A model generated the notes under the pieces. That model saw only the letters and a program-made list of their open reading frames with translations, made no database searches and had not been told where the DNA came from. From positions 16,959,764 through 17,023,763 of the forward strand of contig NC_088306.1 in NCBI RefSeq assembly GCF_032854445.1: a stretch of DNA of 64,000 nt, written 5' to 3'. This document shows positions 4,542-60,960 of this stretch, one piece after another (within the stretch, counting starts at the first letter, position 1; each line of letters opens with the position of its first letter). Source of the stretch: Liolophura sinensis (taxonomy: Eukaryota; Mollusca; Polyplacophora; Chitonida; Chitonidae). The translations under genes were made by a program, and so were the position numbers.

Positions 4542-4982
4542 CTAGATTTTCTGGAGAGTCGCCTTCAGAAAATCAATAGGGTTTGCATCAGTCATGTTTC
4601 GATCAACACTAAAACCTGTGTCTTTATTGAATTCTATGATCCACGGATCGTAGTTTTCCTCAGTATCTAGCATTTCCCAGTCATTTTCAGGCCTTTGGAA
4701 CTGCCGATTTCGTCCCCCACCGCCTCTTGCTCGCCCTCTACCACGCCCCCTGCCTCGCCCTCTGCCACGCCTAAAATCCACTTCCTGGTTTACAGTATGA
4801 TTTGCCGGTGCATGGAAATCACCTTCACTGTCCGTTTCAAAGTCACTTTCAGCGCCATTACCGCTGATCGGGAGATCGGTAGAATCCAATTCATCGTCCA
4901 AATCAGACAAATTCGGCTCACTTCCCGAATCATCGTCATTTTGTATCATATCCACCACTTGCCTCAGCGAATACGTTGCCAT
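4542..4982 (-). CDS. Truncated piggyBac transposase-like protein (146 aa)
   Basis: I chose the ATG at 4982 (MATYSLRQ...); a reading frame of seven codons upstream begins only with TTG. The protein has an acidic, Ser/Asp-rich N-terminus (about residues 14-55), typical of PGBD/piggyBac transposases. An Arg-Gly tract follows (about residues 73-90, RGRGRGRG then RARGGGG). The C-terminus, WIIEFNKDTGFSV...NPIDFLKATLQKI, resembles the start of the DDE_Tnp_1_7 (piggyBac) transposase domain. The frame then stops, so the catalytic DDD core is absent. Either this is the remnant left by an internal deletion or a short protein is still made from the element. Whether a downstream exon ever existed cannot be told. 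The family assignment rests on motif resemblance plus the flanking TTAA/TIR structure. Confidence 0.6.
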   Translation of the reverse strand: MATYSLRQVVDMIQNDDDSGSEPNLSDLDDELDSTDLPISGNGAESDFETDSEGDFHAPANHTVNQEVDFRRGRGRGRGRGRGRARGGGGRNRQFQRPENDWEMLDTEENYDPWIIEFNKDTGFSVDRNMTDANPIDFLKATLQKI

Positions 4983-5191
4983 CTTTCTGACGGAAACTCT
5001 CAAAAATTCAGAATGTTTCGCTAATCAAAAACTCCAAAAAATTCAATGTAAACATGTGCGGACAAAGGTACGAAACAGTGGCTGTGGTAGTGGGCTGCGT
5101 ATATACACAGAGTTATTTCTGGGTTACAGCCGCCTATGCGTATTTTTGGCGCGAAATTTAAACAGGTGTTTTTGCTCGCATTTTTGCGAGC

Positions 5192-8200: not shown

Positions 8201-8495
8201 TATACCTGATATGTCAGCTATATGTTGGCCTATAAAGTGCTTGCATTATGAAGTGCACCGCCGTATAACGTTCAGTCCCATATTTTTTTTACCTTTTGAT
8301 CGACCCGAGAACAAAATATATCAAGGCAAGAAAGTCCAGCCAAATTAGTCTGTATCACCATTGTCTTATTGTATGCATGCATTCAGTATAACGAGTTATA
8401 TTACTGTGACGATGAGCCAACAAAGTTCGTCCATATATTGAACGTGCATGCCGCTTCACTGCAAAACAATACATAAGATAATTATAGAGATGGGA
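5211..8495. other. Intergenic, no gene seen
   Basis: No exon is supported. It holds a CRE palindrome (7595-7602), a YY1-like ATGGCGG at about 7571, and a small perfect hairpin (TATCGCTCG/CGAGCGATA, 7746-7769) in a locally CpG-richer patch (7740-7860). Together these could mark a promoter, but no convincing coding exon follows in either direction. Confidence 0.4.
7595..7602. promoter_or_regulatory. CRE-type palindrome TGACGTCA
   Basis: Perfect CREB/ATF consensus octamer, about 25 bp from a YY1-like ATGGCGGATTTT. No gene is assigned to it. Confidence 0.35.
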
Positions 8496-9240
8496 CAGCC
8501 GCCCATCATCATTGACCTGTAGTGTATATGCTGTATGCGTAGTAACACCTGTCCATTATAACTGACATGCAGGGTACGCTGTATACGTTGTGACACCCGC
8601 CCATTATCATTGACGTGTAGTGTACGCTCTATAGGCCCTACGTAGTGACACACGCCCATTATCATTGACGTGCAGTATACATGCTGTATACGTAATGACA
8701 CCCGTCCATTATCATTGGTATGTAGTGTATGGTGTATACGTAGTGACACCCGTCCATTATCATTGACATGCAGTATATGCCGTATATACGTAGTGACACC
8801 CGCTCGTAATCATTCACACTCAGTATATCCCGTATACGTATTACCGACACCCGCCTATAATTACTGAAACTCAGTACATGCCGTACACGTATTGTCGACA
8901 CCTGCCCATAATCAGTGACAATCAGTATATGCCATATACGCATTGTCAACACCTGCCCATAGTCGGTGACACTAAGTATATGTCGTATACGTATTGTCGA
9001 CATCCGTCCATCATCATTGACAACTAGTGAATGCTGTATACGTAGTGACACCCGCCCAAAATCAGTGACACTCAGTTTATGCCGTATATACGTATTGTCG
9101 TCACCCGCCCATAATCAGTGACATGCAGTATATGTCGTATACTTAGTGACACCCGCCCAAAATCATTGATATGCACTCTATGCCGTATACGTATTGTCGA
9201 CACCCGCACATAATCAGACACTCAGTACATGCCGTATAGG
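8496..9240. repeat. Minisatellite, about 50-bp unit, about 15 copies
   Basis: Units read approximately GACACCCGCCCATAATCATTGACATGCAGTATATGCCGTATACGTAGT (quoted here as a period description) with 10-25% divergence and indels. The array shifts gradually from GTAGTGACACCC-type joints on the left to GTATTGTCGACACC-type joints on the right, so two subfamilies are visible. Reading frames crossing it in both strands are by-products. Confidence 0.9.
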
Positions 9241-21299: not shown

Positions 21300-21539
21300 T
21301 TAGTCAACCATAAGCTCAAAATGCACGCTGCCTGCTCTCTCGTTGGTATCATAGGCAATGTTCTTTGCGAAAGCACGGCAGCGGACCATGATGACAACGC
21401 CATTGGTTACATTCGTGAACTGTGCAAACATGATTGGCTGGCGATATCCTTGCTGGTTGAGAAAGGGGAAATACTTGAAGTGGAATCCTTCTGGAGGGTA
21501 ATATGCCACATTCCCAATATTTTCCTGGTCCGATGGGTT
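21300..21539 (-). CDS. ATPase beta exon 6 (terminal)
   Basis: Acceptor ATTTTCAG; residues 233-311 with the YYPPEGF...YFPF motif, the NVT sequon and Cys286. It ends HFELMVD followed by TAA. Confidence 0.95.
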   Translation of the reverse strand, partial: NPSDQENIGNVAYYPPEGFHFKYFPFLNQQGYRQPIMFAQFTNVTNGVVIMVRCRAFAKNIAYDTNERAGSVHFELMVD

Positions 21540-24500
21540 CTGAAAATAGAAGACACCAAAGAACATTAAATTACAGACAGGCGGAAGTTTACTTTCCTTG
21601 TGGCTGAACATGGCATTCACCAATATTTTTCATCACATCACATCACAAGTTTTAGCAGGCCTGCCTCAATGATGAGATATAATATTGTTGTCCAATTGAA
21701 AATCCCTGCTAAAACCTCCATGACACAGGAAGATTCAACTGACCAGCACTTGGGTCTATCCCTAGTCCCGCAAGACTAGAACTCCTTTTCTTATATTGGC
21801 CTAGTGCCTCAATGCCAACAGTATTAATTTCGCACTCAACGAAGGTCCAGGCCGATTTTCATTATTATAGAACAAGTCTTGTGCAAATAAAATACACCAA
21901 ATTAAAGGCCTGCCTTCCACACCGCGACCATATGTCCCTACTAGCTTTAGAATAGATATATCATAGCCATGAAGGCTTCCATGGCACATGCTCCTCGGAC
22001 GTGGCCACCATGTTAAGCAGATACATATAGGACTATACCAAAAGAAACACCGTGATATAAAAAAATGGCCAAAACATGTCAAATAGGATGATTTTACTAT
22101 CTAGTTTTCAATGACTTCTGAACCTACATGACTAGCACTGAATAAACATGTGTTAAAACACCTATTCTGCTGGAAGTTCTTACCTCTCCAGTACACCTGA
22201 TATTGACAGCATTATCCATGTAGCCTCCACCCACTTCACCTGGGATTGACCCATTCTCATACTTCTGTGGCATCCAATTGTAGATCTGCAAATGATACAT
22301 ACAAAGACCTAATGTACACTTGTGTGCTTGATGTCAATCTTGATACCGTTAATTTGTAAGTTGTGTTTTGTATTTTAATTTGTCATTTTCCTTTTGTTGC
22401 CTGTTTACGGGCATGTATATATGTTTTTAGTTACAGCAAGCTAGACCAGACATCTTCATGAAGATCTTTTGATCAAGACATTTGAAATTTCATATAAAGT
22501 CAACCTTCAAGTGACACGTTTTGCCAGATGCAGATTTGACTGATCCACTCACCTTATAAGGAATAGTTAAGAGTTTTCATGAAGTTTGATTAATTTCTTG
22601 TACAAAACTCTTAAATGTGGACTTGAAAAGTATCATTTTTAGGCTTCAATACACATCTAGAAGTGCACTTTTACAGGCCAAACTTTAAATATGGTATTTA
22701 ATTCTCTCTCCACAGATTTATGCAACTAAAAGGAGGGAGGTCCCTAACACATACCTGCATGTAGGTGTTAACACTCGGCTGTATTAAAACACATCACATT
22801 GTCTCACTTTCATATAACTTCTCTATTCATTAACAGTTATCACATTTTAGTTCTAGAGGTCAACTGCTGCCTTTCAACCTGATTGAACATTAAAGCAGTA
22901 TAAAGACATTTGTCTACACTGCCTTTAATCCGAGGGTAAGAAGCCTACAGTTGTTACCTTGTTTAGCTTGATGAGCACACATGGCTGACCGTCGTCGTAC
23001 CCAAAGTCGTCCTGTTTGATGCAGGGATTGCCCTGTCCCAAGTCACGACTCAGATCAAACTTGCAGACTTTGTTCCAGTCTTTCTTCTCTCTGTAATTAG
23101 GGATACTGGAGCAGTCCATGACGTTTTCACCCACCTGTCCAGCATTTTCATAGACTACAAAACAAAAATGAAACCAGAACACTCAAATCCACCATCAACA
23201 CTGAACAACTAATTAAAGTGTGTCAACTTGTTGGTGAGAAACTGGCACCCAAGAAATCTGTTATTGACCGTACTATGCCAGGAGCCTGATTAAATCATTA
23301 TTCTTTAGTTCATTCAGGTGTACAACTATACTCAAGAATACTTCAGTTCTACAACAGTGGTTAGGTTTACGAATCAGGTCTGATACAAAACAGCAGGCCT
23401 GTAGCTATCTCTTTCAGCTGTGGTTGACAAATGTCAATACCCATGCAATCCAACTGCTGCTCTGAATATTCCCTATGTTCTTGACATATGAAGTTCATCA
23501 GCCACTACTTACTTAGTGAACGACAAGATGGGATTTTGATGCGTGATTATTGCTTATTTATTTGATTGTTGTTTTACGCCATACTGAAGAATGTTTCACT
23601 TATATACGACAGCGGCCAGCATTATGGTGAAAGGAAAACTGGCAGAGTCCAAAGGAAACTCAAGACCATCTGCAGGTAGCTGCAAGACCACAGCAAGGAA
23701 AACTGGCAGAGTCCAAAGGAAACTCAAGACCATCTGCAGGTAGCTGCAAGACCACATATGGCCAGAGAGGAAGCCAGCAAGAGCTGGATGAACTTGGAGC
23801 GACTCCAATGGTGGGATACTCCTGGGGCATTGCGCCGTGCTGGTGTGCTAACCCACCTCGGCCATGCAGGCCCTGCCAACAGTTCAAAACACCACGCTCA
23901 ATCTTGAAAATCAGCTAAAAGCAGTACTGCATCCTGGAGGGAGTAACTGCCTCATGACAATTAGGGTAGCACCGGGACCATATCACAGCCCTGCCACTCA
24001 TACGTAAAACTTACATTTGAGGAAGGCCTCAATATGATCTGTGTAGGGTTTATATGTGGAAGGCTTGCCCTTGATGAAGCGTATCAGTGTGGTCTTCACA
24101 TCAGGAAGGGGGCGAAATCCTAGGCCTGAAAAACAAATAATACAGTTCAGTATAACTTCAGTCTTCAATCCAGGTTTTTTGAGATCCTGGTGGAAGTAAT
24201 AAAATCTACTTCCATGTATTCAGTGCAACAACTGCTCTCCCAATAATTTCGTAAAATCCGACAGGTAGTTCAACTCCATTAAATAAATCTTTATGCCGAT
24301 TTTTACTCTGGACATTAAATTAACTTTATGCCATATCATCCACTCTTGAAAGATTATGTTGTTTTCCCTTGAAGTGAACAGATGAGATCAATGTTTGTGG
24401 ATATCCAAAATAATCTTGTTTTATAATGTATTCACAGGGGCGAAATATAAAGTATGAACTCGCGAGAAAATGATCTATCTGATCCCCTGTATGGCTCTTT

Positions 24501-26656
24501 CGAACATTTGTTATCAAGTGTGACTCCTCTAAGCGCCAACACAGAAGTTTTGTGCTGCTCAGATACTACACGCAAAAGGCCTGTATTTCAAACTCTGACT
24601 CAAGATGACGGAGATGTTTTTATAGATCTGTGTACTAGTACATGTAATACCTTAATTCAACTTTTTTAAGCAGGAAAGCGTTAATTTCATTGTGATTTAT
24701 GCAACATTTTAATTTGATTTTGGAGATTTAAACTACACTTTCAGAGATTAAAGCTGACAATCTCAGGGCTTCACAAAAAGTATAACTTTATCAGTATAAT
24801 GCCCTCAGAATATGCTTGAATAAAAAGCTTGCAAACATGCAGAAAGGTTGAAGAATTACAGTAGTACAAAGGAATCACTGCCATGACGATACCTGGATTA
24901 TCTCTCAGAAGGCTGTCCTCTCCAGATAACCTGGGGTAGTCCCAATCAATTGTCTGATAGAACACGGCTATCATAGCAATCCAGAAGCCAGCCAGACAGA
25001 TATAGTAGATCACGTAGAACAGGATAATCTTGGCTGTGGAAAAAACAGAAAAAAGGCATGGTCAAAATAAGCATGCAGATGGTTAAAATAGATGGGCAGT
25101 TCAGTGGTACACTTTCATTTCTACTGCCAATGGGAATTATTATCCTATGTGAGGATAAACCAACAAATTGTACAAAAATGTGCAAATTATTTTACAGCAG
25201 ATTTTGAAACAAAATCAAAAGATGGTAGGTTGGAGTGAGTGCGAGTGCTTGGGGTTTAACATCATTCTCAACAATTTTTTACTCCTTGAACAATCAGTGC
25301 ATCACTAGACCAATGAGCCAGGCGAGAATACCAGCCAACTCTAACCTCTGAAGTTACCCCTTAGCACAGACCCTCATATTGCTCCCATAGACGTTTTGAT
25401 GGATTCTCTCCACACTGAATAATTCCAATAAGTTATTGGCAGTGCCAGGCTCCGGGACACCACAGAATTCAGATGAGTGTAAAACTAACGAATAAATGCT
25501 TTATTTTTAAAATTGGTAAAAACTTTGTTTTCGACCTTGGCCTTCCCTATACATACTGAACACAGTGTGACCAGACCTGTTTGATTGATATGGGGACATG
25601 AGCCATTGGTAGAATTAAACTGGAGGAGTGATTGAGATTGGGGATTCAACTCCACACTGGCAGCATTTCAGCTATATTGTGGTGCAAGTCACAACATAGG
25701 GTAAGACAGTTAACAGGGCACATGTATAGTCACATGCAAATAATCACCATGGCAACCATATTAAAACAAAATGCCTGGTTTCCTTGATATATGTAGTTAC
25801 ATGCATTTAACACTCCAAGAACTTTGTGCAAGAGAGTGAAATCAGTTTTTCCTTGCTTTCTCTGAAAAGGCCTATCCCATTTTACTGGATGTTCTGATTT
25901 ATTAGCATGCAAGTTTCCCTTAGTCTTTCTGGTGCATATTAAATGCAAAGCAAGCTCTTCTGCAATATCAATATTGAGCCATTGATTATTTCTTGTAACT
26001 GTAGATTTACCAATGAATACCACCTGCAGATCATATCTTCACTTCTCTCAATCTTGGCTAATGAAAAACCACCCTTTTTGATATGGCTTCTTGTTTACGA
26101 TTAGAGCTTTCCCACTACAGTTATCTGCATATAATATAGAATCATATAATGTTAGAGACTATTCGGAAATCATACACCGGACAGGAACTGACGCCAGGCC
26201 TGTAATGAACGGTGCAGGCGACCTACATCATTACAATATTCGATGCAAAGAGATGCAAATAGGCCTAACAGGTTTTCCGTGGTCAGGGCGAAATGTAATT
26301 AAGTATACTAATAAACACAAGTCTAAAATGTAAACCACAGGCATCATATACACATATCAGCGAATAATGTCACAACAGATGCTGGAAAATGTCATGCAAT
26401 TACAAAATGCACCCCTGTGTTTGTTGGTCGATGTCGAAATTCGGGTCATAGCAAGTTGACCCCTGCAAGGGTACGCAGAGGAATTCGTAAAAATGTAAGT
26501 AATATACATACCCCAACTCAAACCGGTGCGGCCAAGACATTCCGATGTTTCTGGGTTCCACACAAACGTAGCAAACTCTCCAAGCCTTTGGCCTATCGTT
26601 TGCTTTTGTGGGCCGGTTGCGCCCGTATCAGCTTCAGAACCTACAGTCGACGCCAT
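21300..26656 (-). CDS. Na+/K+-transporting ATPase subunit beta (six exons, 311 aa)
   Basis: This is the obligatory glycoprotein partner of the Na+/K+-ATPase alpha subunit, needed for folding, membrane delivery and K+ occlusion. Exons on the minus strand are 26656-26512, 25033-24893, 24125-24015, 23154-22958, 22285-22184 and 21539-21300. All introns are GT-AG and the lengths sum to 936 nt, giving 311 codons plus stop. Residues 1-49 are cytoplasmic; 51-74 form the single membrane span (IILFYVIYYICLAGFWIAMI); the rest is extracellular. The six family cysteines pair as C147-C163, C177-C191 and C230-C286. The conserved YYPPEGFHFKYFPF motif is at 245-258. N-glycosylation sequons are N209-G-S and N275-V-T. 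The start ATG has a good context (GAAAATGG). The length is normal for the family and nothing looks broken. An H+/K+-ATPase or nervana-like specialisation cannot be excluded. Confidence 0.95.
22184..22285 (-). CDS. ATPase beta exon 5
   Basis: Acceptor TTTGCAG; residues 199-232 (IYNWMPQKYENGS...NIRCTGE) with one N-glycosylation sequon and Cys230. The donor is GTAAGA. Confidence 0.95.
22958..23154 (-). CDS. ATPase beta exon 4
   Basis: Acceptor TTTTGTAG; residues 133-198 with cysteines 147, 163, 177 and 191 (the first two disulfides). It ends in CVLIKLNK with donor GTAACA, a boundary that keeps the reading phase at 0. Confidence 0.95.
23560..23885 (-). mobile_element. SINE in ATPase beta intron 3, with internal duplication
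   Basis: Nearly full-length copy lying in the gene's sense direction. It includes the tRNA-like head (CATTGCGCCGTGCTGGTGTGCTAACCC... in this orientation). A 64-bp block starting AAGGAAAACTGGCAGAG is tandemly duplicated (23631 and 23695), an arrangement not seen in the other copies. Confidence 0.85.
24015..24125 (-). CDS. ATPase beta exon 3
   Basis: Acceptor TTTTTCAG; encodes GLGFRPLPDVKTTLIRF through HIEAFLK. The donor is T|GTAAGT. Confidence 0.95.
24680..24863 (+). mobile_element. MITE family D in ATPase beta intron 2
   Basis: Shares GGCTTCACAAAAAGTATAAC, TTTATCAGTATAATGCC, TGCTTGAATAAA, TTGCAAACATGCA and the terminal GGTTGAAGAATTACAGTA with the other family D copies. Confidence 0.65.
24893..25033 (-). 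CDS. ATPase beta exon 2
   Basis: Acceptor CCACAG; completes Ala49 and encodes the membrane span and the start of the ectodomain (DWDYPRLSGEDSLLRDNP). The donor is G|GTATCG. Confidence 0.95.
25225..25470 (+). repeat. Possible second SINE-type repeat in ATPase beta intron 1
   Basis: GAGTGAGTGCGAGTGCTTGG followed by GGTTTAACATCATTCTCAAC recalls a widespread mollusc interspersed repeat that begins with GAGTGAGTG and GGTTTAACGTCGT. The assignment is from memory of the pattern. The right boundary is uncertain. Confidence 0.35.
26512..26656 (-). CDS. ATPase beta exon 1
   Basis: Encodes residues 1-48 plus one base: the cytoplasmic tail, including FATFVWNPETSECLGRTGLSW, which matches the family's conserved pre-membrane segment. 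The donor is G|GTATGT. Confidence 0.93.
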
Positions 26657-27374
26657 TTTCCTGGGATCCGCTTCGGCTTGTGAGAGCGTGAGTTCTGTAG
26701 TACCCGGATGATCAGTCCAGGCATGTATAGTCGAACAAATTTAAACTTGCTCTACCAGTGATGGGGGGATAACTCTTGGTTGAAGTAGTTCTCTGTCACA
26801 TGCCATGTGCAAATTTGAAAGTCCCTGTCTGACGGATAATACTGAAATGATTAAAATTAAGCACTCTCAAAATATGCCATCTCAACTTAAAAATACATGT
26901 AGGCTGCTTAGGACACAGAATTATTAAATGTGTTTGCTGCTCAAACCTAGTTTAATTAATTTAGACGATGATGTCTATTTTCAACAATTTGTGATATTTA
27001 GGCCTACCTGCCTGAATATCAGAAACTGTTAAAAATACGTTGAATTTAGTTGAACTAGCTCAGACCACGGAGGCTATATACGTTCAAACAAAGAGAAAGG
27101 CGAGGGGGAGGAAGAAGGGTGAGTGGTGTGGGGGTGGTGGCGGTGGTAATGAGCCATAAATATCCGAAGTCAACATATAAATAGATATAGCAAACAAGCA
27201 AAAGGATAAATGAATTTATTAATCAGTATTATAGAGGGTAATCACCTGTTATGGTATATATAAATGTGTCGTTTAAGCTGGAATAACGCGGAAACGGAGT
27301 TATATTAGTTCAAGCCTTGTATACTGCTTTAGACTCATAGTTTTATCTGTTTTGCTGAAATATCCAGCGAGTGC
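26657..27374. other. Upstream region of the ATPase beta gene
   Basis: Contains the 5' UTR and presumably the promoter. I see no TATA box or CRE at a convincing spacing and cannot place the transcription start or an upstream non-coding exon. A G-rich purine stretch lies at 27097-27150. Confidence 0.4.
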
Positions 27375-30895: not shown

Positions 30896-31149
30896 GGGGG
30901 CGTCCGTGGCCAAGGTGATTAGCGGGCCAGCGCGGCGCAATGACCCAAGAGCCTTTCGCTAACGCGATCGCTTTCAGTTCAAGTTCAGCTCATGCTGTCT
31001 TTCTCACAGGCAGTACGTGGAAGGCCTAGCAGCAACCTGCGGATGTTCATGATTTTCTCCTGGGCTATGCCCGGTTTCCTCCCACAATAATGCTTGTTTA
31101 AGGGAAACATACGACGTGAGAAACCAGTCAAATAAATCAATAAATAAAT
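30896..31149 (+). mobile_element. Full-length SINE just upstream of kinase gene 1
   Basis: The tRNA-like head has an A-box region (GTGGCCAAGGTGATTAGCGG) and a B-box (CAGTTCAAGTTC). The body has AACCTGCGGATGTTCATG and CCGGTTTCCTCCCAC, and the tail has AACCAGTCAAATAAATC. Homology between the two duplicated kinase units begins exactly at its 3' end. Confidence 0.9.
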
Positions 31150-31225
31150 ATTGAAAACGTTGTCTCTGACGCGTTTCCGCCATACACGAGATTCCCACCA
31201 ACTCTGGCCCAAAAGAGTGAAGCAC

Positions 31226-31233
31226 TGACGTCA
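31226..31233 (+). promoter_or_regulatory. CRE palindrome at the kinase 1 promoter
   Basis: TGACGTCA lies 51 bp before the chosen start codon and is conserved in position in unit 2. It overlaps an upstream in-frame ATG (31233), which is therefore probably promoter rather than coding. Confidence 0.55.
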
Positions 31234-31283
31234 TGCGTTTTGTTGCTAATATCAACGCGATCGTCATACAAGCAGTAACAAGA

Positions 31284-31442
31284 ATGGCGCCGAAACATGT
31301 ACGTCAACCTCCTCCTGCTGCGAATATGCAGAACTGTGAATATCCAAGCGAGATAAACGCGAGTACAAAGCGCCGAAAAAAGGCGGACAGAAAGGAGATT
31401 GGTGATTGTCTTGGACAAGAAGACCATATTGATAAGAAAGTG
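31284..31442 (+). CDS. Kinase 1 exon 1
   Basis: Encodes residues 1-53 (MAPKHVRQ... to HIDKKV), basic and Cys-poor. Donor GTG|GTGAGT. It differs from the paralogous exon far more than exon 2 does. Confidence 0.8.
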
Positions 31443-33436
31443 GTGAGTAAATTATATTGTTGTTCTACAGATCTACACCGTATGAAGTGTATAGGAGTAG
31501 ACCTATCCCTACACACAATCATCATCGCTGTATTTTTCAGCGTGTATAATTTACTCCTAGTTAATTAGGCATTCACATGAACATTTAGAATAAAATCGTA
31601 ACTGAGATATATTTAGGATTAAGAGGATGTATATTTCTCCGGCTTCGTGTGGCCATTTTCCAGCTATCACACTGTCGCTTTTGCTTTTGTCAGCAAAAGA
31701 AAAATGCAAACTATGTACTCCATGTAGATAATTAAGAAGATGATATTTTTTATAAATGTCATTTTATTAAATCATGATCGTTTTCCATGCATGTAAAATG
31801 TATAAAAGGTCAACTGTATGCACTCATGCCACAATATGTGTTATGATTACGAAGGTATTAAATAAATGGATGTTTTCGATTGTTTTATTTCGATAGTGCA
31901 TGCTGTACCGGTATTGCTTTTGAGAGCCAATATGTGCATGTCATGGCTAATCAAACAATCGTTTGTTTATGGTGAATCACTCCGAGAAATTGGTCAACCA
32001 GGCTGGGGTTGTATCTAAAATGCAAAGATTTTTTCAAAGATGTTATTTGTAAACTGATCTGACGGTGCAGATTCCTCTAATCTTTAGTAAATTTTCACAT
32101 ATTGTGTACATACGTGTTGTCTTTACGCATGTATGTTTTGTTTCTCTTTCAGGTGAGGACTGCAGGTGATGATGAACCAACCTTTCGTGTACCGGGTCCT
32201 AGAAAAAGACGAAAACGTCAAAGACCCTCCACTGATCCAGTATCACCTGGCCAACCTGTCGCCAAAAGAGGCCCTAGAGCAATTCAAGAAGAGGCCAAAA
32301 ACGGTCCGGAAACCAAGAATGGCCGGACAGGTACCCCTATCATAGCGGAAGCCAAAAGGCGAGGCAAAGATCGAGGTGACACCAAGGGTTTTGAGACAAG
32401 ATGGGAAACCAAAAATGTCCAACAAGGTACGCGCGCCATTGTGAAGGAAAACGGACGAGAGAAACATGGCGACCAACCCATGCGGGATGATCCAAGACCG
32501 GAAGTTAAGAATGCCCGGCAAGGTACGCCCACCATTGTGGAGGAAAACGGGCGACATAACCATAGCGATGACTCCATGAGGTCTCCGTCAACACCGGAAC
32601 CAGGATCGGCACCGTCAGGTTTTCACCAGATCAGGGTGCCATACCTGAACGCTGAAGAAGTCAGGTATCGGAGGACGGTTGGGGGAATGGTGAAGATATT
32701 CGGAGAAGGAGAGTATGGATATGTGGTCAGAGGAGAGTACACTCCGACAGGTGCTGATGAAGCTGCAGACGTCGTGGCCAAGTACGTCAAGAACGGCAGA
32801 TCGAGCTTAGGTGGCAGTCACTACGAAGCTCGGATGTTGGCGCATCTATCCGACACAGGGTGTGTGCCGAAAGTTTACGGTCTTTTGAAAGACGAAACGG
32901 GCAAGGGCGAACCTGCCATAGTGCAGGAATGTGTGGGTGGTGGGCTGAGCTTAGAGGACGTCCTTAAACTGAAAGCCGCTCAGTCAACGTGGGTGGAATT
33001 GTGTCTTCAGTCAGCCCAAGGCCCTGAAAAGATCCACGCCAAACATGTCCTCCTCAACGACATCAAAGCCGACAACATTTTGATGGCTTGTGCTCCTGGA
33101 GGAAACAACATTCGGTTCATCGACATGGGAATGGCTTCTTACAAGTGCGGGGTTCGCTTCCGGTCTGAAGCATCCATGGCCAGAAGCCATCACCTCGCAC
33201 CGGAAGTGAGGGAATGCGGCGTGACCTCTGAACTATCGGATATCTACAGCTTGGGAAAGGTCATCGAAAGTATCGCCCTCAAGGCCAAGAATAAAGTGCT
33301 GCATGCCACTGGTCAGCTGATGACATGTGAGGATCCTTCTGAAAGATGTAGTTTACAAACGGTAATCGAACTTCTCAAAGAATTCGCCAGTCGGATGGCT
33401 CAAATCCGATCAGTTCATGAACAGAATAATCTATGA
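31284..33436 (+). CDS. Divergent protein kinase, copy 1 (two exons, 480 aa)
   Basis: Predicted Ser/Thr-type protein kinase of unassigned family. Exon 1 is 31284-31442 and exon 2 is 32153-33436; the intron is GTGAGT...CTTTCAG, phase 0. I chose the ATG at 31284 (strong AAGAATGG context) over the in-frame ATG at 31233, which overlaps the CRE. Residues 29-36 and 70-77 are basic clusters (nuclear-localisation-like). Residues 105-200 are three 32-residue repeats. The kinase domain spans about 230-466: glycine loop GEGEYGYV (237-244), Lys263, helix-C Glu278, catalytic loop LNDIKADN (354-361; Asn replaces Arg of HRD), DMG (377-379), APE (402-404) and helix-F Asp416. All catalytic residues are present, so activity is expected. 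Copy 1 alone has Pro344 in helix E. No membrane segment or signal peptide is visible. CREB/ATF regulation is suggested by the promoter. Confidence 0.88.
32153..33436 (+). CDS. Kinase 1 exon 2
   Basis: Acceptor TTTCTCTTTCAG; residues 54-480 with the repeat region and the entire kinase domain. The open frame extends upstream through the intron end only from a TTG codon, which confirms that an upstream exon is needed. Confidence 0.9.
   Translation: MRTAGDDEPTFRVPGPRKRRKRQRPSTDPVSPGQPVAKRGPRAIQEEAKNGPETKNGRTGTPIIAEAKRRGKDRGDTKGFETRWETKNVQQGTRAIVKENGREKHGDQPMRDDPRPEVKNARQGTPTIVEENGRHNHSDDSMRSPSTPEPGSAPSGFHQIRVPYLNAEEVRYRRTVGGMVKIFGEGEYGYVVRGEYTPTGADEAADVVAKYVKNGRSSLGGSHYEARMLAHLSDTGCVPKVYGLLKDETGKGEPAIVQECVGGGLSLEDVLKLKAAQSTWVELCLQSAQGPEKIHAKHVLLNDIKADNILMACAPGGNNIRFIDMGMASYKCGVRFRSEASMARSHHLAPEVRECGVTSELSDIYSLGKVIESIALKAKNKVLHATGQLMTCEDPSERCSLQTVIELLKEFASRMAQIRSVHEQNNL
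32306..32593 (+). repeat. Three in-frame 96-bp (32-aa) repeats in kinase 1
   Basis: Units start PETKNGRTGTPII (res. 105), WETKNVQQGTRAIV (137) and PEVKNARQGTPTIV (169). The consensus is (P/W)E-x-KN-x-x-x-GT-x-x-I(I/V)-x-E, followed by a basic and His/Asp-rich tail. The spacing is exactly 32 residues. Confidence 0.8.
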
Positions 33437-34038
33437 CTTCATGTACACGATAGAATCATTTTAGCGGAGTTTATCGAATCATGCATGTCTACATTTAATT
33501 ATGCACTCAAGAATGTCGCTCTGCCATGCACAATACAGACCTATACACGTTGGACGTATTTTATAATTACCGTATACTTAACTGTAGGGCATCTATAATC
33601 ATATATAGTGGGTGATATGTGTGATCCACTTCATATAAAACACGACTCAAATGAGTAAATAAATCATATCCCCATATTTCAGGTTGTTGAACAATACTGT
33701 TTGTGCGATACCGTGTGATACACGCAGTCATGTCCAATTAACACAAGCCTTTCAAGTACATGCATTCCACAATGTTATAAATGAGGTTCTCTCCATGCAG
33801 AACCAGCTATGTACGACATGATAACTTTTCCAAGAACATCCAGTATGAGCTATACGTTTTTATCGTGCATATGATATGTTTATATAGCTGTAGCTGTAGG
33901 TACATGTAAACAACTGTGCATTGCTGATGTTTGGAGTAAGGTGTGATATTCAATCTATATTTGAAGATACATGTGATATAAGGTACGTACCCTATATAAT
34001 TTATTTTTCTTGACAAGATTGTGGAACACTGTGTTTAA

Positions 34039-34044
34039 AATAAA
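34039..34044 (+). terminator. Polyadenylation signal of kinase 1
   Basis: AATAAA followed by GATGGTGTTTGTTGGTGG, a classic GU-rich downstream element. It is conserved in unit 2. An earlier AATAAA near 33657 is a weaker alternative. Confidence 0.6.
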
Positions 34045-34069
34045 ACTGGTCACATATCTGAAGTCCCTG

Positions 34070-35277
34070 TGATGGTGTTTGTTGGTGGTTTATTTTTTAA
34101 CTATAATGGTATTACTTTATGACAGTCTCGCTGTGCATGTAGGTCTGCTTACAAGTCAGACACTGTATATATAGGTATTTTGACTTGGCGCAGCATCAAA
34201 GGGAAAGCGCTAATAGGTTTATGCCAGTATGCCCGACCCAGTATTAGGGCATGTACATGTACCGGGTGGTGGTGACACTGATACTGTCACCGCATCCTGT
34301 TGTGTTTCGCATCTTGTGTCGCATCATGTTTCGGTGAAGCAGAACGATTACAGTTTGAAGTCATTTGGACAGCAAACGAGACATGGGATAGTGAAATGAT
34401 CTCCAAAATCTTAAAACGACGCGCAACTCGAACCGATATACAATGGAGGGGAAAAACAGACCTACTTATATTTACGCACAGATGTAGGGCCATGATGGTT
34501 ATGAAGGTATGTTACCTCTAATCAGTAGCATGCTGCGTGAAATATACTCGCTCTTTCTTGCATCAATATATGTGTATTGGTATCGTATCTACTTTCCAAG
34601 ATATAAGGCGACTTAGAAACAGAAATTTAAAAATATGGAATGGAGATGAGAAGAGTTATCGTTCTTTTGTCCAGTTAACATTTATCGCAATCAAGGTATT
34701 GCGATGCGATATTGCACCATGCAACGACGAAGCAATGGAACAGAGCGACACTGGATGTAATACAGCAGTATGGAAGAGAGCACTGGACAAATGAAACCGA
34801 GCGAGTGTTGGAAATGCGAATGTTTGTTGGCCTGTACCGGTAGCCTACGTGTAAAAATTGATGTACAGAGTAACATGGAAACCGCTTACAGGCAGACAGT
34901 ACTTTGGATTGCTTAATTTTACCTGATTTCTGAAAGCCTCCCAGATTACACCGGAACATCAGATGGAAATGCTATTTCGTTAAAACACAAGCTACCGCAT
35001 TCTGATCAGATAATGAATGAATAATTGACATGGTATACGCCAAATAAATAGCATTACAAATACGCAGTGGTGGGAACAGTGGTGAGATTACAAAGAGTCT
35101 GTACATGGTTTTCACGTTTGGATGAATGCAAAACATGAAAGGTAATTAAAAACATACATAAAGAACGTAGTAAAGCACACTTTAAGAACCAAACGTGAGG
35201 TCAAATGCTCAAAACTATTCTCAAGGTCATTTTACATATACCAGATCATACATATCAGACATGTAGAATAGGTGTGT
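34070..35277. other. Spacer between kinase genes (duplicated)
   Basis: Corresponds to 38575-40090 of unit 2, with a roughly 0.4-kb length difference around 34570-34910 versus 39060-39800. The short open frame around 34300-34521 is not preserved in unit 2, so I do not call it a gene. Confidence 0.5.
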
Positions 35278-35285
35278 GATTTAAA

Positions 35286-35559
35286 GGTAAGCTTTGGGGC
35301 CTTTGTAGCCGAGTGGTTTAGCATGCCAGCATGGAGCACTGACCCTCTCGCTAGTGCGATCGCCGTGAGTTCAAGTCCACCTCATAGTGTCTTCCTCTCC
35401 GGCCGTACGTGGGATGGTCTGCGGGTAACCTGCCGATGGTCGTAGTTTCCCCTCCAGGATTTAGCCATTTCCTCCCACTGGCCGCCGTCCTACAAGTGAA
35501 ATATTTTTGAGTACGCCGTAAAACACCATTCAAATAAATGAATAAAGAAAGAAGAAAAA
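35286..35559 (+). mobile_element. Full-length SINE inserted in unit 1 after the duplication
   Basis: tRNA-like head with A-box TAGCCGAGTGG and B-box GTTCAAGTCC, then the family body and tail (GTAAAACACCATTCAAATAAA). GATTTAAA flanks it at 35278-35285 and 35560-35567. The paralogous position in unit 2 (about 40085-40100) has no SINE. Confidence 0.88.
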
Positions 35560-35876
35560 GATTTAAAATATTCGTGTTATTATTTTCATAATATCCATCT
35601 TCCCTATAGCCCTCTTCGCATCACCATATCGAAGAAACAGTTCAGAGCACGGTGTGATCAACCAGCCGGTACTTTGCCAAACAATTTCTGTAAACTTTGT
35701 TCCATCCAAGTATTTTTAAACAGGCCCGTTTAAAAGCATGCATGCATGTATTACTTAATGTCCAAGTACCCTATAAAAAGGTGGTATGAAATGCTTTCTG
35801 TATTGGTGACGTTGTCTCTGACACGTTTCTGCCATGCTATAGAGATTCGCACCAACACCTCTCTAAGGCAGTGAAG

Positions 35877-35899
35877 TGACGTCATAAAGCTTGACGTCA
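35877..35899 (+). promoter_or_regulatory. Paired CRE palindromes at the kinase 2 promoter
   Basis: Two perfect TGACGTCA sites (35877-35884 and 35892-35899) with a 15-bp period. Only the second has a counterpart in unit 1. Confidence 0.55.
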
Positions 35900-35949
35900 T
35901 GCGTTCTGTTGCTAATATCAACGCAATCGTCACACAAACAGTAACAAGA

Positions 35950-36108
35950 ATGGCGTCGAAAAGCGCACGTCAACGTTCTACTGCTGTTCTAATGCAGAAT
36001 TGTGAATATCCAAGCAAAACAAACCCGAGTAGAAAGCGCCAAAGAAGGGCGGACAGAAAGGAGATTGGTGATTGTCTGGGACAAGAAGACCATATTGACA
36101 AGAAAGTG
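35950..36108 (+). CDS. Kinase 2 exon 1
   Basis: Encodes residues 1-53 (MASKSARQ... to HIDKKV). The start context AAGAATGG is shared with copy 1. Donor GTG|GTGAGT, followed at once by a stop in the intron. Confidence 0.8.
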
Positions 36109-37865
36109 GTGAGTTAATTATATCATAGTTGTTCAAATCTACACCGTATAAAGTGTATAGGATTAGACCTAACCCTAGACCTAAATGTCTTTTTATCAAA
36201 TCATGATCCTTTTTCATGCATGTCAAATGTATAATAGGTCAACTGGATGCACTCATACCGCAATATGTGTTATGATTACGAAGGTATTAAATAAATGGAT
36301 GTTTTCGATTGTTTTATTTTGATAGTGCATGCTGTACCGGTATTGCTTTTGAGAGCCAATATGTGCATGTCATGGCTAATCAAACCATCGTTTGTTTATG
36401 GTGAATCACTCCGAGAAATTGGTCAACCAGGCTGGGGTTGTATCTAAAATGCAAAGATTTTTTCAAAGATGTTATTTGTAGACTGATCTGACGGTGCAGA
36501 TTCCTCTAATCTTTAGTAAATTTTCACATATTGTGTATATACGTGTTGTCTTTACGCATGTATGTTTTGTTTCTCTTTCAGGTGAGGACTGCAGGTGATG
36601 ATGAACCGACCTTTCGTGTACCGGGTCCTAGAAAAAGACGAAAACGTCAAAGACCCTCCACTGATCCAGTATCACCTGGCCAACCTGTCGCCAAAACAGG
36701 CCCAAGAGTAATTCAACAAGAGGCCAAAAACGGCCCGGAAACCAAGAATGGCCGGACAGGTACCCCTATCATAGCGGAAGCCAAAAGGCGAGGCAAAGAT
36801 CAAGGTGACACCAAGGGTTTTGAGGCAAGATGGGAAACCAAAAATGTCCAGCAAGGTACGCGCGCCATTGTGAAGGAAAACGGACGAGAGAAACATGGCG
36901 ACCAACCCATGCGGCATGATCCAAGACCGGAAGTTAAGAATGCCCGGCAAGGTACGCCCACCATTGTGGAGGAAAACGGGCGACATAACCATAGCGATGG
37001 CTCCATGAGGTCTCGGTCAACACCGGAACCAGGATCGGCACCGTCAGGTTTTCACCAGATCAGGGTGCCATACCTGAACGCTGAAGAAGTCAGGTATCGG
37101 AGCACGGTTGGGGGAATGGTGAAGATATTCGGAGAAGGAGAGTATGGATATGTGGTCAGAGGAGAGTACACTCCGACAGGTGCTGATGAAGCTGCAGACG
37201 TCGTGGCCAAGTACGTCAAGAACGGCAGATCGAGTTTAGGTGGCAGTCACTACGAAGCTCGGATGTTGGCGCATCTATCCGACACAGGGTGTGTGCCGAA
37301 AGTTTACGGCCTTTTGAAAGACGAAACGGGCAAAGGCGAACCTGCCATAGTGCAGGAATGTGTGGGTGGTGGACTGAGCTTAGAGGACGTCCTTAAACTG
37401 AAAGCCGCTCAGTCAACGTGGGTGGAAGTGTGTCTTCAGTCAGCCCAAGGCCTTGAAAAGATCCACGCCAAACATGTCCTCCTCAACGACATCAAAGCCG
37501 ACAACATTTTGGTGGCTTGTGCCCCTGGAGGAAACAACATCCGGTTCATCGACATGGGAATGGCTTCTTACAAGTGCGGGGTTCGCTTCCGGTCTGAAGC
37601 ATCCATGGCCAGAAGCCATCACCTCGCACCGGAAGTGAGGGAATGCGGCGTGACCTCTGAACTATCGGATATCTACAGCTTGGGAAAGGTCATCGAAAGT
37701 ATCGCCCTCAAGGCCAAGAATAAAGTGCTGCATGCCATTGGTCAGCTGATGACATGTGAGGATCCTTCTGAAAGATGTAGTTTACAAACGGTAATCGAAC
37801 TTCTCAAAGAATTCGCCAGTCGGATGGCCCAAATCCGATCAGTTCATGAACAGAATAATCTATGA
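35950..37865 (+). CDS. Divergent protein kinase, copy 2 (two exons, 480 aa)
   Basis: Paralogue of the copy at 31284. Exon 1 is 35950-36108 and exon 2 is 36582-37865; the intron is GTGAGT...CTTTCAG, phase 0. Exon 2 differs from copy 1 by 13 residues, and exon 1 by about 20 of 53. The domain plan is the same: basic N-terminus (KRQRRADRK), three 32-residue repeats, and a kinase domain with GEGEYGYV, Lys263, Glu278, LNDIKADN, DMG, APE and Asp416. Position 344 is Leu here, as expected in helix E, so this copy may be the better-folded one. Both genes point the same way and have separate promoters and polyadenylation signals, so they are independent units. The substrate and pathway are unknown. The basic stretches suggest nuclear location. 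Confidence 0.88.
36582..37865 (+). CDS. Kinase 2 exon 2
   Basis: Acceptor TTTCTCTTTCAG; residues 54-480, open throughout, no frameshift relative to copy 1. Confidence 0.9.
   Translation: MRTAGDDEPTFRVPGPRKRRKRQRPSTDPVSPGQPVAKTGPRVIQQEAKNGPETKNGRTGTPIIAEAKRRGKDQGDTKGFEARWETKNVQQGTRAIVKENGREKHGDQPMRHDPRPEVKNARQGTPTIVEENGRHNHSDGSMRSRSTPEPGSAPSGFHQIRVPYLNAEEVRYRSTVGGMVKIFGEGEYGYVVRGEYTPTGADEAADVVAKYVKNGRSSLGGSHYEARMLAHLSDTGCVPKVYGLLKDETGKGEPAIVQECVGGGLSLEDVLKLKAAQSTWVEVCLQSAQGLEKIHAKHVLLNDIKADNILVACAPGGNNIRFIDMGMASYKCGVRFRSEASMARSHHLAPEVRECGVTSELSDIYSLGKVIESIALKAKNKVLHAIGQLMTCEDPSERCSLQTVIELLKEFASRMAQIRSVHEQNNL
36735..37022 (+). repeat. Three in-frame 96-bp repeats in kinase 2
   Basis: Same register and number as in copy 1, so the repeat expansion predates the gene duplication or was homogenised with it. 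Confidence 0.8.
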
Positions 37866-38542
37866 CTTCATGTACACGATAGAATCATTTTCGCTGAGCT
37901 TATCGAATCATGCATGTCTACATTTAATTATGCACTCAAGAATGTCGCTCTGCCATGCACAATACATGGGCAATCAGGAATATGACTAATTGCATTGCTT
38001 TCGCATGCACTATAATATTGTTTTTTTTTTTTAAATTATAGACCTATTCACGTTGGACCTATTTTAGAATTACCGTATACTTAACTGTACGGCATCTATA
38101 ATCATATATCGTGGGTGATATCTGTGGTCCAATTCATATAAAACACGAATCAAATGAGTAAATAAATCATATCCCCATATTTCAGGCTGTTAAATAATAC
38201 TGTTTGTGCGATACCGTGTGATACACGCAGTCATGTCCAGTTAACACAAAGCCTTTCCAGTACATGCATTCCACAATGTTATAAATGAGGTTCTCTCCAT
38301 GCAGAACCAGCTATGTACGACATGGTAACTTTTCCAAGAACATCCAGTATGAGCTATACGGTTTTATCGTGCATATGATATGTTTATATAGCTGTAGCTG
38401 TAGGCACATATAAACAATTGTGCATTGCTGATGTTTGAATTAAGGTGTAATATTCAATCTATATTTGAAAATATATGTGATATAAGGTACGTACCCTATA
38501 TAATTTATTTTTCTTGACAAGATTGTGGAACACTGTGTTTAA

Positions 38543-38548
38543 AATAAA
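38543..38548 (+). terminator. Polyadenylation signal of kinase 2
   Basis: AATAAA followed by GATGGTATTTGTTTGTGG, at the position equivalent to 34039. Confidence 0.6.
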
Positions 38549-40150
38549 ACTGATCTCATATCTGAAATCCCTGTGATGGTATTTGTTTGTGGTTTATTTT
38601 TTAACTTTAATGGAATTACTTCACTAACTGGTTATTAAACTGAATGACAACCTCACTGTGCATGTTGTCAGACACCGTATATGTGGATATTTTGATCTAG
38701 GCGCAGCATCAAAGGGAAAGCGCTAGAAGGTTTATGCGATTATGCGTAGCCTAGGGTCAGGACATTTACAGGGTATGTTGTGTTTCGAATCTTGTGTCGC
38801 ATCCTGTTTCAGTGAAGCAGAACGATTATACCTCGAAGTTTTTTGGACAGCAAAAGAGACATGGGATAGGGAAATGATCTCCAAAAGCTCAACTGGAACT
38901 GTTATATAATGGAGGGGCAAAAAAAGAGAAAAATCTGCTTATATTTACGCATATATATAGGGCCATCCTGTAGCTGATGAAGGTTATGACGGTATCTTAC
39001 CTGTAATCAGTAGCATGCTGGGTGAAATATACTCGCAATTTCTTGCATCAATATATGTCTAACTGCTTGAACCGTTGAGACAGAAGGCCTACTATATCAT
39101 TTACAAGGAACTCCAGCCATCCTGCTTAAATAACCTATAGCTGGAGATGGTTCAGGTCGTGGCCTCCAGAGGGCTTGTGTTGGTGATTTTGACCCATACT
39201 GAATGTTTACAAAATTACATTAGGATTGTTGCACAACTAGATTCATGCTCAGTTCTTAAACAAATGGAGATAAATCTAAGCACCACTGAGGCTGATCAAG
39301 GCGTTTGACTGTCGCTGGATTTTATGTTTCAATTTTGTAGCGGCGGCTTCCCAGATGAAAGCCGGGCTGACCTAGATATCGCACCTATTACACGGTTTGT
39401 AATCAACTGATTTTACGTCTGTGGTCACCTGTAAATGATACAGACCTGTCCCACAACACTTTGTGAAATTGCCCTTCGGCTGCATGTAACTAAGTCGTTT
39501 TTAACGGTCTCAAAATGATGTCTTATGCAGTAGTTCTATGCTATTATATGTCACTTGATGGAGTGAATGGGGAAGGTCACAGTTTAGGCTGTGCAATCGG
39601 ATAGCAACGTGTTTGATTGGATCAAATTCTCAAGATTTCTGCCTCGTCTTACAGAAGCCGTTTGTGCAGTTTTGTCAGTTTGTTCCATATGTTATTCGGT
39701 GAAATCTCATTAAAATAATAAAGTATGATACCTTTTAGAAAGCCTGAGTATCCTGCTTTCGATTGAAATATGTTTTAGCCAGGAGCTGTCTTGTCCTTTA
39801 GTATTACCTGATTTCTGAAAAACCTCCCAGCTTGCACTGAAACAGGAAATGAAAATGTTATTTCGTTAAAACACAAACTTCCACATTCTGATCAGATAAT
39901 GAATGAATAATCGATGTGGTTTACGCCCGATAAACGGTATTATAACTACGCAATGGTGAAAACAGGGATGAGGTTACAAAAAGTCTGTTAACGGTTTTCA
40001 CCTTTGATTGAATGAGAACATATGAAGATTTCATTTTACTTATACCTTAGCATATGTCTGACATGTACAGATTAGACTTGTAATTAAAACATAAGAGTTT
40101 AAATATTATTATTTTTTTTTTATAATATCCATATCTGCATTGAATCGCTT

Positions 40151-59628: not shown

Positions 59629-59895
59629 ATGTACATGTACATGTATATGGTGGGTCCTTGTCAGTACATGTACATGGTGGGTCCTTGTCAGTACATATAC
59701 ATGTACATGGTGGGTCCTTGTCAGTATATGTATATGTATATGGTGGGTCCTTGTCAGTACATGTACATGTACATGGTGGGTCCTTGTCAGTACATGCACA
59801 TGTACATGGTGGGGTCCTTGTCAGTACATGTACATGTACATGGTGGGTCCTTGTCAGTACATGTACATTATGTACTTTATGTACATGTACAAACG
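59629..59895. repeat. Minisatellite built on ACATGT hexamers, seven units
   Basis: The constant core GGTGGGTCCTTGTCAGTA alternates with one to three copies of ACATGT/ATATGT, so the period steps between 27 and 33 bp. The frame-preserving length keeps repetitive open frames on both strands; these are not genes. Confidence 0.9.
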
Positions 59896-59999: not shown

Positions 60000-60960
60000 A
60001 ACATTGGGCCAATGAGAATACCCTAGTGTAGCTGTAAAGTAGAACAGTGGGCCAATGAGAACACTCCGGCATAGCTGTGAAAGAAGCACATTTGCCCAGG
60101 GAGAACATTCCAGCATGGCTGTGAAAGTAGCTCATTGGGCCAGTGAGAACATCCCAGCATAGCAGTGAAAGTAGCTCATTGGGCCAGTGAGAACACACCC
60201 CGGCATAGTTGTGAAAGTAGCTCATTGGGCCAGTGAGAAGACCATGGCATAGGCTATGAAAAGTTCACATTGGGCCAAGTGGAAACATTCCAGCATAGCA
60301 GTGAAAGTAGCATTGGGCCAGTGAGAACATCATAGCATAGCAGTGAAAGTAGCTCATTGGGCCAGTGAGAACACCCCGGCATAGTTGTGAAAGTAGCTCA
60401 TTGGGCCAGTGAGAACACCTCAGCATACGGTCAAGCAATGAAAGTAACACATTGTGCCAAGGGGAACACCCAAGCATAGCTTTTAAAGAGCACATTCGGC
60501 CAACGTGCATTGTAGCATTGAAAGAATCACATCAGGCCAGTGAGAACACCCCAATGTAACTTTTAAAGTAACACATTGGGCCAATGAGAACACCCCAGCA
60601 TACATTGTAGCATTGAAAGTAACACATCTGGCCAATGAGAACACACAAGCATACATTCTAGCATTGAAAGTAGAACATTGGGCCAATGAGGGCACCATAG
60701 CAACATAGCAGTGAAAGGAGCACATTGGGTGTAGGAGAACACCCCAGCATACATTGTAGCATTGAAAGTAGTGCATTGGACCAGTGAGAAGACCTTGGCA
60801 TAGCTGTGAAAGTAGAACATTGGGCAAATGAGAACACCCATATGTGTACGTGTAACAGTGAAAGTGGCATGTTGAGGCAATGAGGAGATCCCATCTGTTC
60901 CTATGAAAGGAGCAGATTAGGCCAGCGAGAACACCCCAGATCAGTGAAAGTATACTCTCC
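60000..60960. repeat. Minisatellite, about 45-bp unit, about 21 copies
   Basis: The unit is close to ATTGGGCCAGTGAGAACACC followed by CCAGCATAGCTGTGAAAGTAGCAC. Divergence rises to the right, where units carry an extra ACATTGTAGCATT-type insert. No relation to the preceding array is seen. Confidence 0.9.

Follow-up and report, generated by a model that had tools for sequence, protein, structure and literature searches.

What do two closely similar, neighbouring genes in the genome of the chiton Liolophura sinensis encode, and why are they so alike in one part and so different in another? The genes lie in a stretch of 64,000 nucleotides of contig NC_088306.1 (assembly GCF_032854445.1, positions 16,959,764 to 17,023,763), called here the window, and all coordinates are positions in it. 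A first-pass annotation of this DNA had described a tandem pair of co-oriented, two-exon genes for 480-residue kinases, and the gene models that we rebuilt from the window bear this out. On balance, we think it probable that they are tandem paralogous animal genes for a divergent eukaryotic protein kinase (ePK), with gene B at least predicted to be catalytic, and that the two copies have been homogenised by gene conversion.

Both genes, and all the features within them, are on the plus strand, and their starts are 4,666 bases apart. Gene A consists of exon 1 at 31284–31442 (residues 1–53, of which 1–33 are divergent and 34–53 conserved), an intron of 710 nt (31443–32152), and exon 2 at 32153–33436, which encodes residues 54–480 and the stop codon and comprises a basic linker, repeats, and the kinase domain. 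In gene B, exon 1 is at 35950–36108 (residues 1–53), the intron of 473 nt at 36109–36581, and exon 2 at 36582–37865 (residues 54–480 and the stop codon). Both introns have a GTGAGT donor and an identical acceptor, TTTGTTTCTCTTTCAG. An AATAAA occurs about 600–680 bases past the stop codon in both genes, with further ones close by; the sites are 33658 and 34039 on the A side and 38161, 38543, and 38634 on the B side. Each gene encodes 480 residues; 28 of these residues, and 48 nucleotides of the coding sequence, are not the same in the two copies, and neither reading frame contains a frameshift or a stop. A tblastn search of the window showed A and B as the sole copies, with E of at least 0.66 for the remaining matches.

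The kinase domain covers about residues 230–480. The catalytic residues listed in the first-pass annotation, K263, E278, D356, N361, and D377, were all confirmed; they were read on A, and the motif strings are in the same places in B. The same is true of the two substitutions that it had pointed out, LND (354–356) for HRD and DMG (377–379) for DFG, and of APE at 402–404. The other kinase motifs are the Gly-rich loop GEGEYGYV, NDIKADN, SDIYSLGK, and DPSERC, with the subdomain-XI Arg at position 451. Pfam PK_Tyr_Ser-Thr (PF07714) matches B with E = 8.8e-19 (68.2 bits) and A with 3.8e-17 (62.9 bits), against a cut-off of 23.1, and Pkinase (PF00069) matches B with 8e-16 (58.6 bits) and A with 4.9e-14 (52.8 bits), against 31.7; no Pfam domain other than the kinase models was found in the exons. 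Since the curated Pfam cut-off is passed and the catalytic Lys, Glu, Asp, Asn, and Asp are kept, both genes are predicted to encode a member of the ePK superfamily. A and B share with a typical ePK (PF07714/PF00069) the Gly-rich loop, the five catalytic residues, APE, and Arg451, and the fold predicted for B is kinase-like. However, they differ from it in LND, in DMG, in an Arg for the Thr of GTxxYxAPE, and in having about 25 residues less around helix alphaG. With LND, no Arg precedes the catalytic Asp, so this is not an RD kinase.

Are these proteins still enzymes? The LND and DMG motifs, together with a Pro at residue 344 of A, could mean that the pair are pseudokinases or decaying genes, unable to catalyse and serving as scaffolds at most. 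However, the five catalytic residues are intact in both copies, as are the reading frames. Furthermore, the kinase-domain segments (residues 227–480; 32672–33433 in A and 37101–37862 in B) differ by 5 nonsynonymous and 7 synonymous changes, which gives a ratio of nonsynonymous to synonymous rates (Ka/Ks) of 0.21 (binomial p = 0.0085). By this measure, the kinase domain evolves under purifying selection. The Ka/Ks of the linker is 0.63, and in residues 34–53 there are just two changes, both of them synonymous. Residues 1–33, with 1.03, are by the same measure drifting at the neutral rate. The lack of constraint on these first 33 residues and on the repeats is what decay would predict, and gene A lies about 5–6 bits below gene B in both Pfam kinase models. 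Taking both sides together, we consider it unlikely that the pair are pseudokinases or decaying genes.

Residue 344 is not the same in the two copies. It is Pro in exon 2 of A and Leu in the kinase-like core of B, while seven of eight comparison kinases have Leu and the eighth has Val at this position. In an AlphaFold model of the B kinase domain, it is model residue 126 and falls inside the helix formed by model residues 112–131, which corresponds to alphaE. Gene A may be impaired through Pro344, and may be losing its activity in this way. Because of this Pro and the lower Pfam scores of A, gene B is the likelier working copy.

The similarity between the copies is not uniform. The tandem duplication could be followed by blastn from 31149 to 35136 (unit A) and from 35801 to 40021 (unit B). 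A three-segment fit delimits a block at 31836–34045 in which A and B are 97.5% identical, with 55 differences in 2210 positions (31 of 926 in noncoding sequence), whereas outside it there are 122 differences in 771 positions of noncoding flank (15.8%) and 24 in the 159 of exon 1. The likelihood gain observed for this fit was matched by none of 60 shuffles. This 2.2-kb block, 2.5% diverged, spans half of the intron (the final 320 nt or so of that of gene A), exon 2, and the 3′ end. The 15.8% divergence of the noncoding flanks points to an old tandem duplication, and the block of low divergence is best read as a gene-conversion tract that bypasses exon 1. Because the block holds about 320 bases of intron, its low divergence cannot be due to coding constraint, whereas gene conversion accounts for it. 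The 97.5% identity of the core might instead arise from an assembly artefact, if copy two were an allele or a duplicate of copy one that had been joined in wrongly. However, the flanks and exon 1 are about 15% different and the introns are unequal in length, and we find an artefact scarcely credible. A retro-copy origin of the block was also considered, and it is ruled out by the intron sequence within the block. Read as gene conversion, the pair is a clean case in which an enzyme is homogenised while its N-terminal exon diverges. On its right-hand side, the block stops where one of the AATAAA sites, that at 34039, is found.

The C-lobe of this kinase appears to be shortened. The Glu of APE and the subdomain-XI Arg of DPSER are 47 residues apart, compared with 79, 71, 72, 71, 73, and 55 in six comparison kinases, which were taken from bacteria and viral contigs and in which the matching Arg was picked by eye where the script gave several. 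This suggests that about 25 residues are missing at the usual place of alphaG. Most of the listed sequence matches in the PDB end at about query residue 206. The AlphaFold model of the B kinase domain (modelled from 37077, built from six sequences) has a kinase-like fold, with a mean predicted local distance difference test score (pLDDT) of 67.6 and a predicted template-modelling score (pTM) of 0.72. The pLDDT of model residues 181–260, by blocks, is 79–93, and here helix 195–213 is followed directly by helix 216–225 (pLDDT about 85–92), with no alphaG helix between them. Thus, neither the spacing nor the model shows alphaG and subdomain X, a feature that is variable and not decisive for membership of the superfamily.

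A Foldseek search of the PDB with this model gave kinases throughout the 50 matches listed, with tyrosine kinases on top; among these matches, the best E was 1.7e-8, the probability 1.00, and the TM score normalised to the query 0.50–0.63, and one of them is an IRAK4 chain. The matches in a viral fold library are likewise generic kinases. A bilobal fold is tentatively suggested: the C-lobe is well modelled and the Foldseek probability is 1.00, but confidence in the N-lobe is low and the alignment consists of six rows. We read the predicted structure as a kinase fold without a family assignment. Of the structure prediction that the first-pass annotation had proposed as a check, the kinase domain thus gave a kinase-like fold, but exon 2 as a whole did not give a confident model.

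To which kinase family do the proteins belong? The first-pass annotation could place them in no named family, and the Pfam, NCBIfam, PHROGs, PADLOC, and PDB comparisons that we ran uphold this. The PDB sequence comparisons listed 60 matches of 945 and 60 of 1090, and it is to these that the following statements refer. The best solved kinase is CDPK1, which shares the kinase core with A and B (42.4 bits); CDPK, STE20, MLCK, EGFR, and bacterial PknB score close together. The STE20 kinase MINK1 is nearly level with CDPK1, at 37.3 bits, and no EF-hand was matched by Pfam in A or B; neither a family-specific match nor EF-hands thus point to the CDPK/CAMK group. IRAK and RIPK are animal non-RD immune kinases, which like A and B have no Arg before the catalytic Asp. 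Neither is among the PDB sequence matches listed, and none of the exons of A and B gave a Pfam match to the Death, CARD, or RHIM region that would point to these TKL kinases. VRK kinases have the signature HGDIKxxN and DYG and no APE, whereas A and B have NDIKADN, DMG, and APE, and no VRK is among the PDB sequence matches listed. All 13 NCBIfam models matched are well under their cut-offs (best 38.7 bits versus 650), and the best PHROGs match, at 46.7 bits, is a serine-threonine kinase family.

The PADLOC profiles matched include those of the bacterial defence kinases mad6 (the best, with 65.5 bits, 1.1e-18) and PD-T4-6 (53.8 bits). The mad6 score is about level with those of the Pfam kinase models, which raises the possibility that the kinase was acquired from a virus or from bacteria or was carried in by a mobile element, and dispersed repeats are found directly upstream of both copies. 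However, the likeness to MAD6 and PD-T4-6 is confined to the kinase core (mad6 positions 59–243 of 659). For this reason, we do not take the mad6 match as a sign of membership; with the MAD6 model of NCBIfam, the score is 28.7, where the cut-off is 460. A scan with the single protein found 3 stretches that fit its pattern in viral contigs and 28 in prokaryote genome contigs, none of which was confirmed as a close relative. Degenerate catalytic-loop patterns gave 1 stretch in the viral contigs (a generic kinase, 31–34% identity) with one pattern and 0 with another. An alignment query of the viral contigs gave 5 loci from 119 candidates, with 27–34% identity, one of which (L007) is on the same contig as L001. 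Identity was at most 30.4% in 12 phage records and, among the 15 listed of 29 plasmid records, at most 33.8%, so that the viral, phage, and plasmid kinases among the matches listed are no more than 34% identical. These distant relatives are generic kinases, and horizontal transfer is not supported by them. With a spliced intron in both genes and an animal gene adjacent, we consider acquisition very unlikely.

A closer contender is that A and B belong to a widespread, annotated, and uncharacterised invertebrate kinase family in which the loop reads H/L-N-D-I-K, the C-lobe is short, and an SD-Y-S-L/F-G-K/R motif occurs, in which case the loop and the C-lobe are not specific to this locus. Similar kinases with N-D-I-K loops are probably present in cnidarian, amphioxus, and lophotrochozoan databases. 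In the oyster kinome, 28 of 371 kinases were left ambiguous, so that kinases of this sort are no rarity among invertebrates, and 21 kinases specific to sea urchins are cited in the same paper (PMC4883820). The unclassified oyster and sea urchin kinases are without a family-level match, like A and B, a likeness by description alone. However, the literature found describes, at the level of its abstracts, no animal kinase family with an HNDIK, HNDLK, LNDIK, or HND loop, and it does not name a kinase of the present type. We regard this explanation as a serious one that falls somewhat short of being probable. The first-pass annotation had also raised a lineage-specific expanded family, which would mean many paralogues in this genome or its relatives; the 64 kb of the window contain two copies.

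The N-terminal region, residues 1–226, is basic, with an isoelectric point of 10.0 in A and 10.4 in B, and it contains RKRRKR, resembling a nuclear localization signal, at residues 70–75. No Pfam family was matched by exon 1. Ahead of the kinase domain, residues 105–200 (32306–32593 in A; the counterpart in the same register of B is 36735–37022) consist of three repeats with a period of exactly 32 residues, as the first-pass annotation had stated. The repeats were scored on residues 54–226 of A, where the repeat diagonal has a score of 126, whereas 1000 shuffles reached no more than 55. At the DNA level, there is a tandem repeat of 1.8 copies with a 96-bp period at 32423–32599. Compared in pairs, the units have 10, 12, and 16 identical residues out of 32. 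Thus, the 32-residue period is real and exact, and the units are degenerate.

We suggest the following mechanism. The enzyme, B at least, would hold Mg-ATP through K263, E278, and D377 and would transfer phosphate with D356 as the base, and the Lys in NDIKADN suggests Ser/Thr substrates. Classical activation-loop phosphorylation is probably not the switch in the absence of the HRD Arg, since a phosphorylated residue in the activation loop would be without its usual partner because the catalytic loop has no Arg. The first-pass annotation had likewise proposed that a non-RD loop does not need activation-loop phosphorylation in the usual way. This agrees with the view, given in a paper on the plant immune kinase EFR, that non-RD kinases are independent of such phosphorylation, yet EFR itself, which lacks an Arg before the catalytic Asp as A and B do, is controlled by it and is a counter-example (PMC8463890). 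The N-terminal repeats probably recruit partners in place of alphaG, a usual docking surface, and the basic segment with RKRRKR probably directs the kinase to the nucleus. Gene conversion would keep the copies alike and bypass exon 1, leaving its first 33 residues to drift.

Several points weigh against the reading of A and B as homogenised genes for a working kinase. The selection test has 12 substitutions in all, and the repeats, with a Ka/Ks of 1.51 (5 and 1 changes), show no constraint between the copies. An alternative in-frame ATG lies 17 codons upstream in both copies (31233 and 35899), so that a 497-residue protein is possible. One comparison kinase, L009, also has a short spacing (55), so a reduced C-lobe is not unique. 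Residues 1–54 of the B model, which make up most of the N-lobe, have a pLDDT below 50, the six-sequence alignment behind the model is poor toward the C-terminus, and the pLDDT of the model of the entire exon 2 is 33.5. The Arg at the Thr position of GTxxYxAPE makes the substrate class uncertain. Furthermore, it is from motifs and architecture that we infer the Ser/Thr substrates, the recruiting role of the repeats, and the nuclear destination.

We conclude that the two genes add a new and divergent member to the protein-kinase superfamily, of mildly unusual architecture and with an instructive gene-conversion history. Three features go beyond the first-pass annotation: the mosaic left by gene conversion, the reduced C-lobe, and the Pro at residue 344 of A. 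A bolder proposal is that the pair represents an animal kinase family of its own, in which the LND/DMG loop is rewired, alphaG is absent, a fast-changing N-terminus and the 32-residue repeats serve for docking, and conversion spares exon 1, so that the enzyme stays constant while the ends that target it diverge; we consider this quite doubtful. If active, the enzyme would be a further natural case of catalysis without the His and Arg of HRD and without alphaG, and it would be of use in learning what the kinase fold can do without. Should many more genes of this sort exist, they would go some way to account for the unclassified kinases of invertebrate kinomes (PMC4883820).

A Na,K-ATPase beta-chain gene is located at 21300–26740 on the minus strand, with four open reading frames above the cut-off of Pfam PF00287 (26360–26740, 24774–25061, 22928–23182, and 21303–21629) and a fifth, 24001–24219, below it. 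Because this gene is present, the window is animal DNA. The sequence TGACGTCA, the CRE/ATF consensus, occurs at 31226, 35877, and 35892, 50–75 bases ahead of both kinase gene starts. It occurs 9 times in the window, where 0.80 are expected, and 9 was reached in none of 100 shuffles; the sites are not evidently copies of one repeat. A CRE specific to the kinase genes was rejected, as the 9 occurrences are spread across the window. A scan of 31000–31400 for bacterial promoters and terminators, a method ill-suited to an animal gene, gave nothing, and neither an Rfam match at the gathering score nor a tRNA was found in the window. A dispersed repeat, presumably SINE-like from its appearance, has copies at about 31001–31149 and 35341–35552, directly upstream of the two duplication units, and relatives of it are near 1352, 12902, 14570, 23554, 27375, 27723, 57008, and 59432. 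An open reading frame of 160 residues at 4542–5024 on the minus strand begins with acidic residues and contains a stretch rich in Gly and Arg; it may resemble the N-termini of piggyBac-type transposases, but its one Pfam match is weak, below the cut-off, and to an unrelated model. Long tandem arrays are found at 8494–9238 (period 51 bases), 59631–59868 (33 bases), and 60002–60838 (about 44–51 bases).

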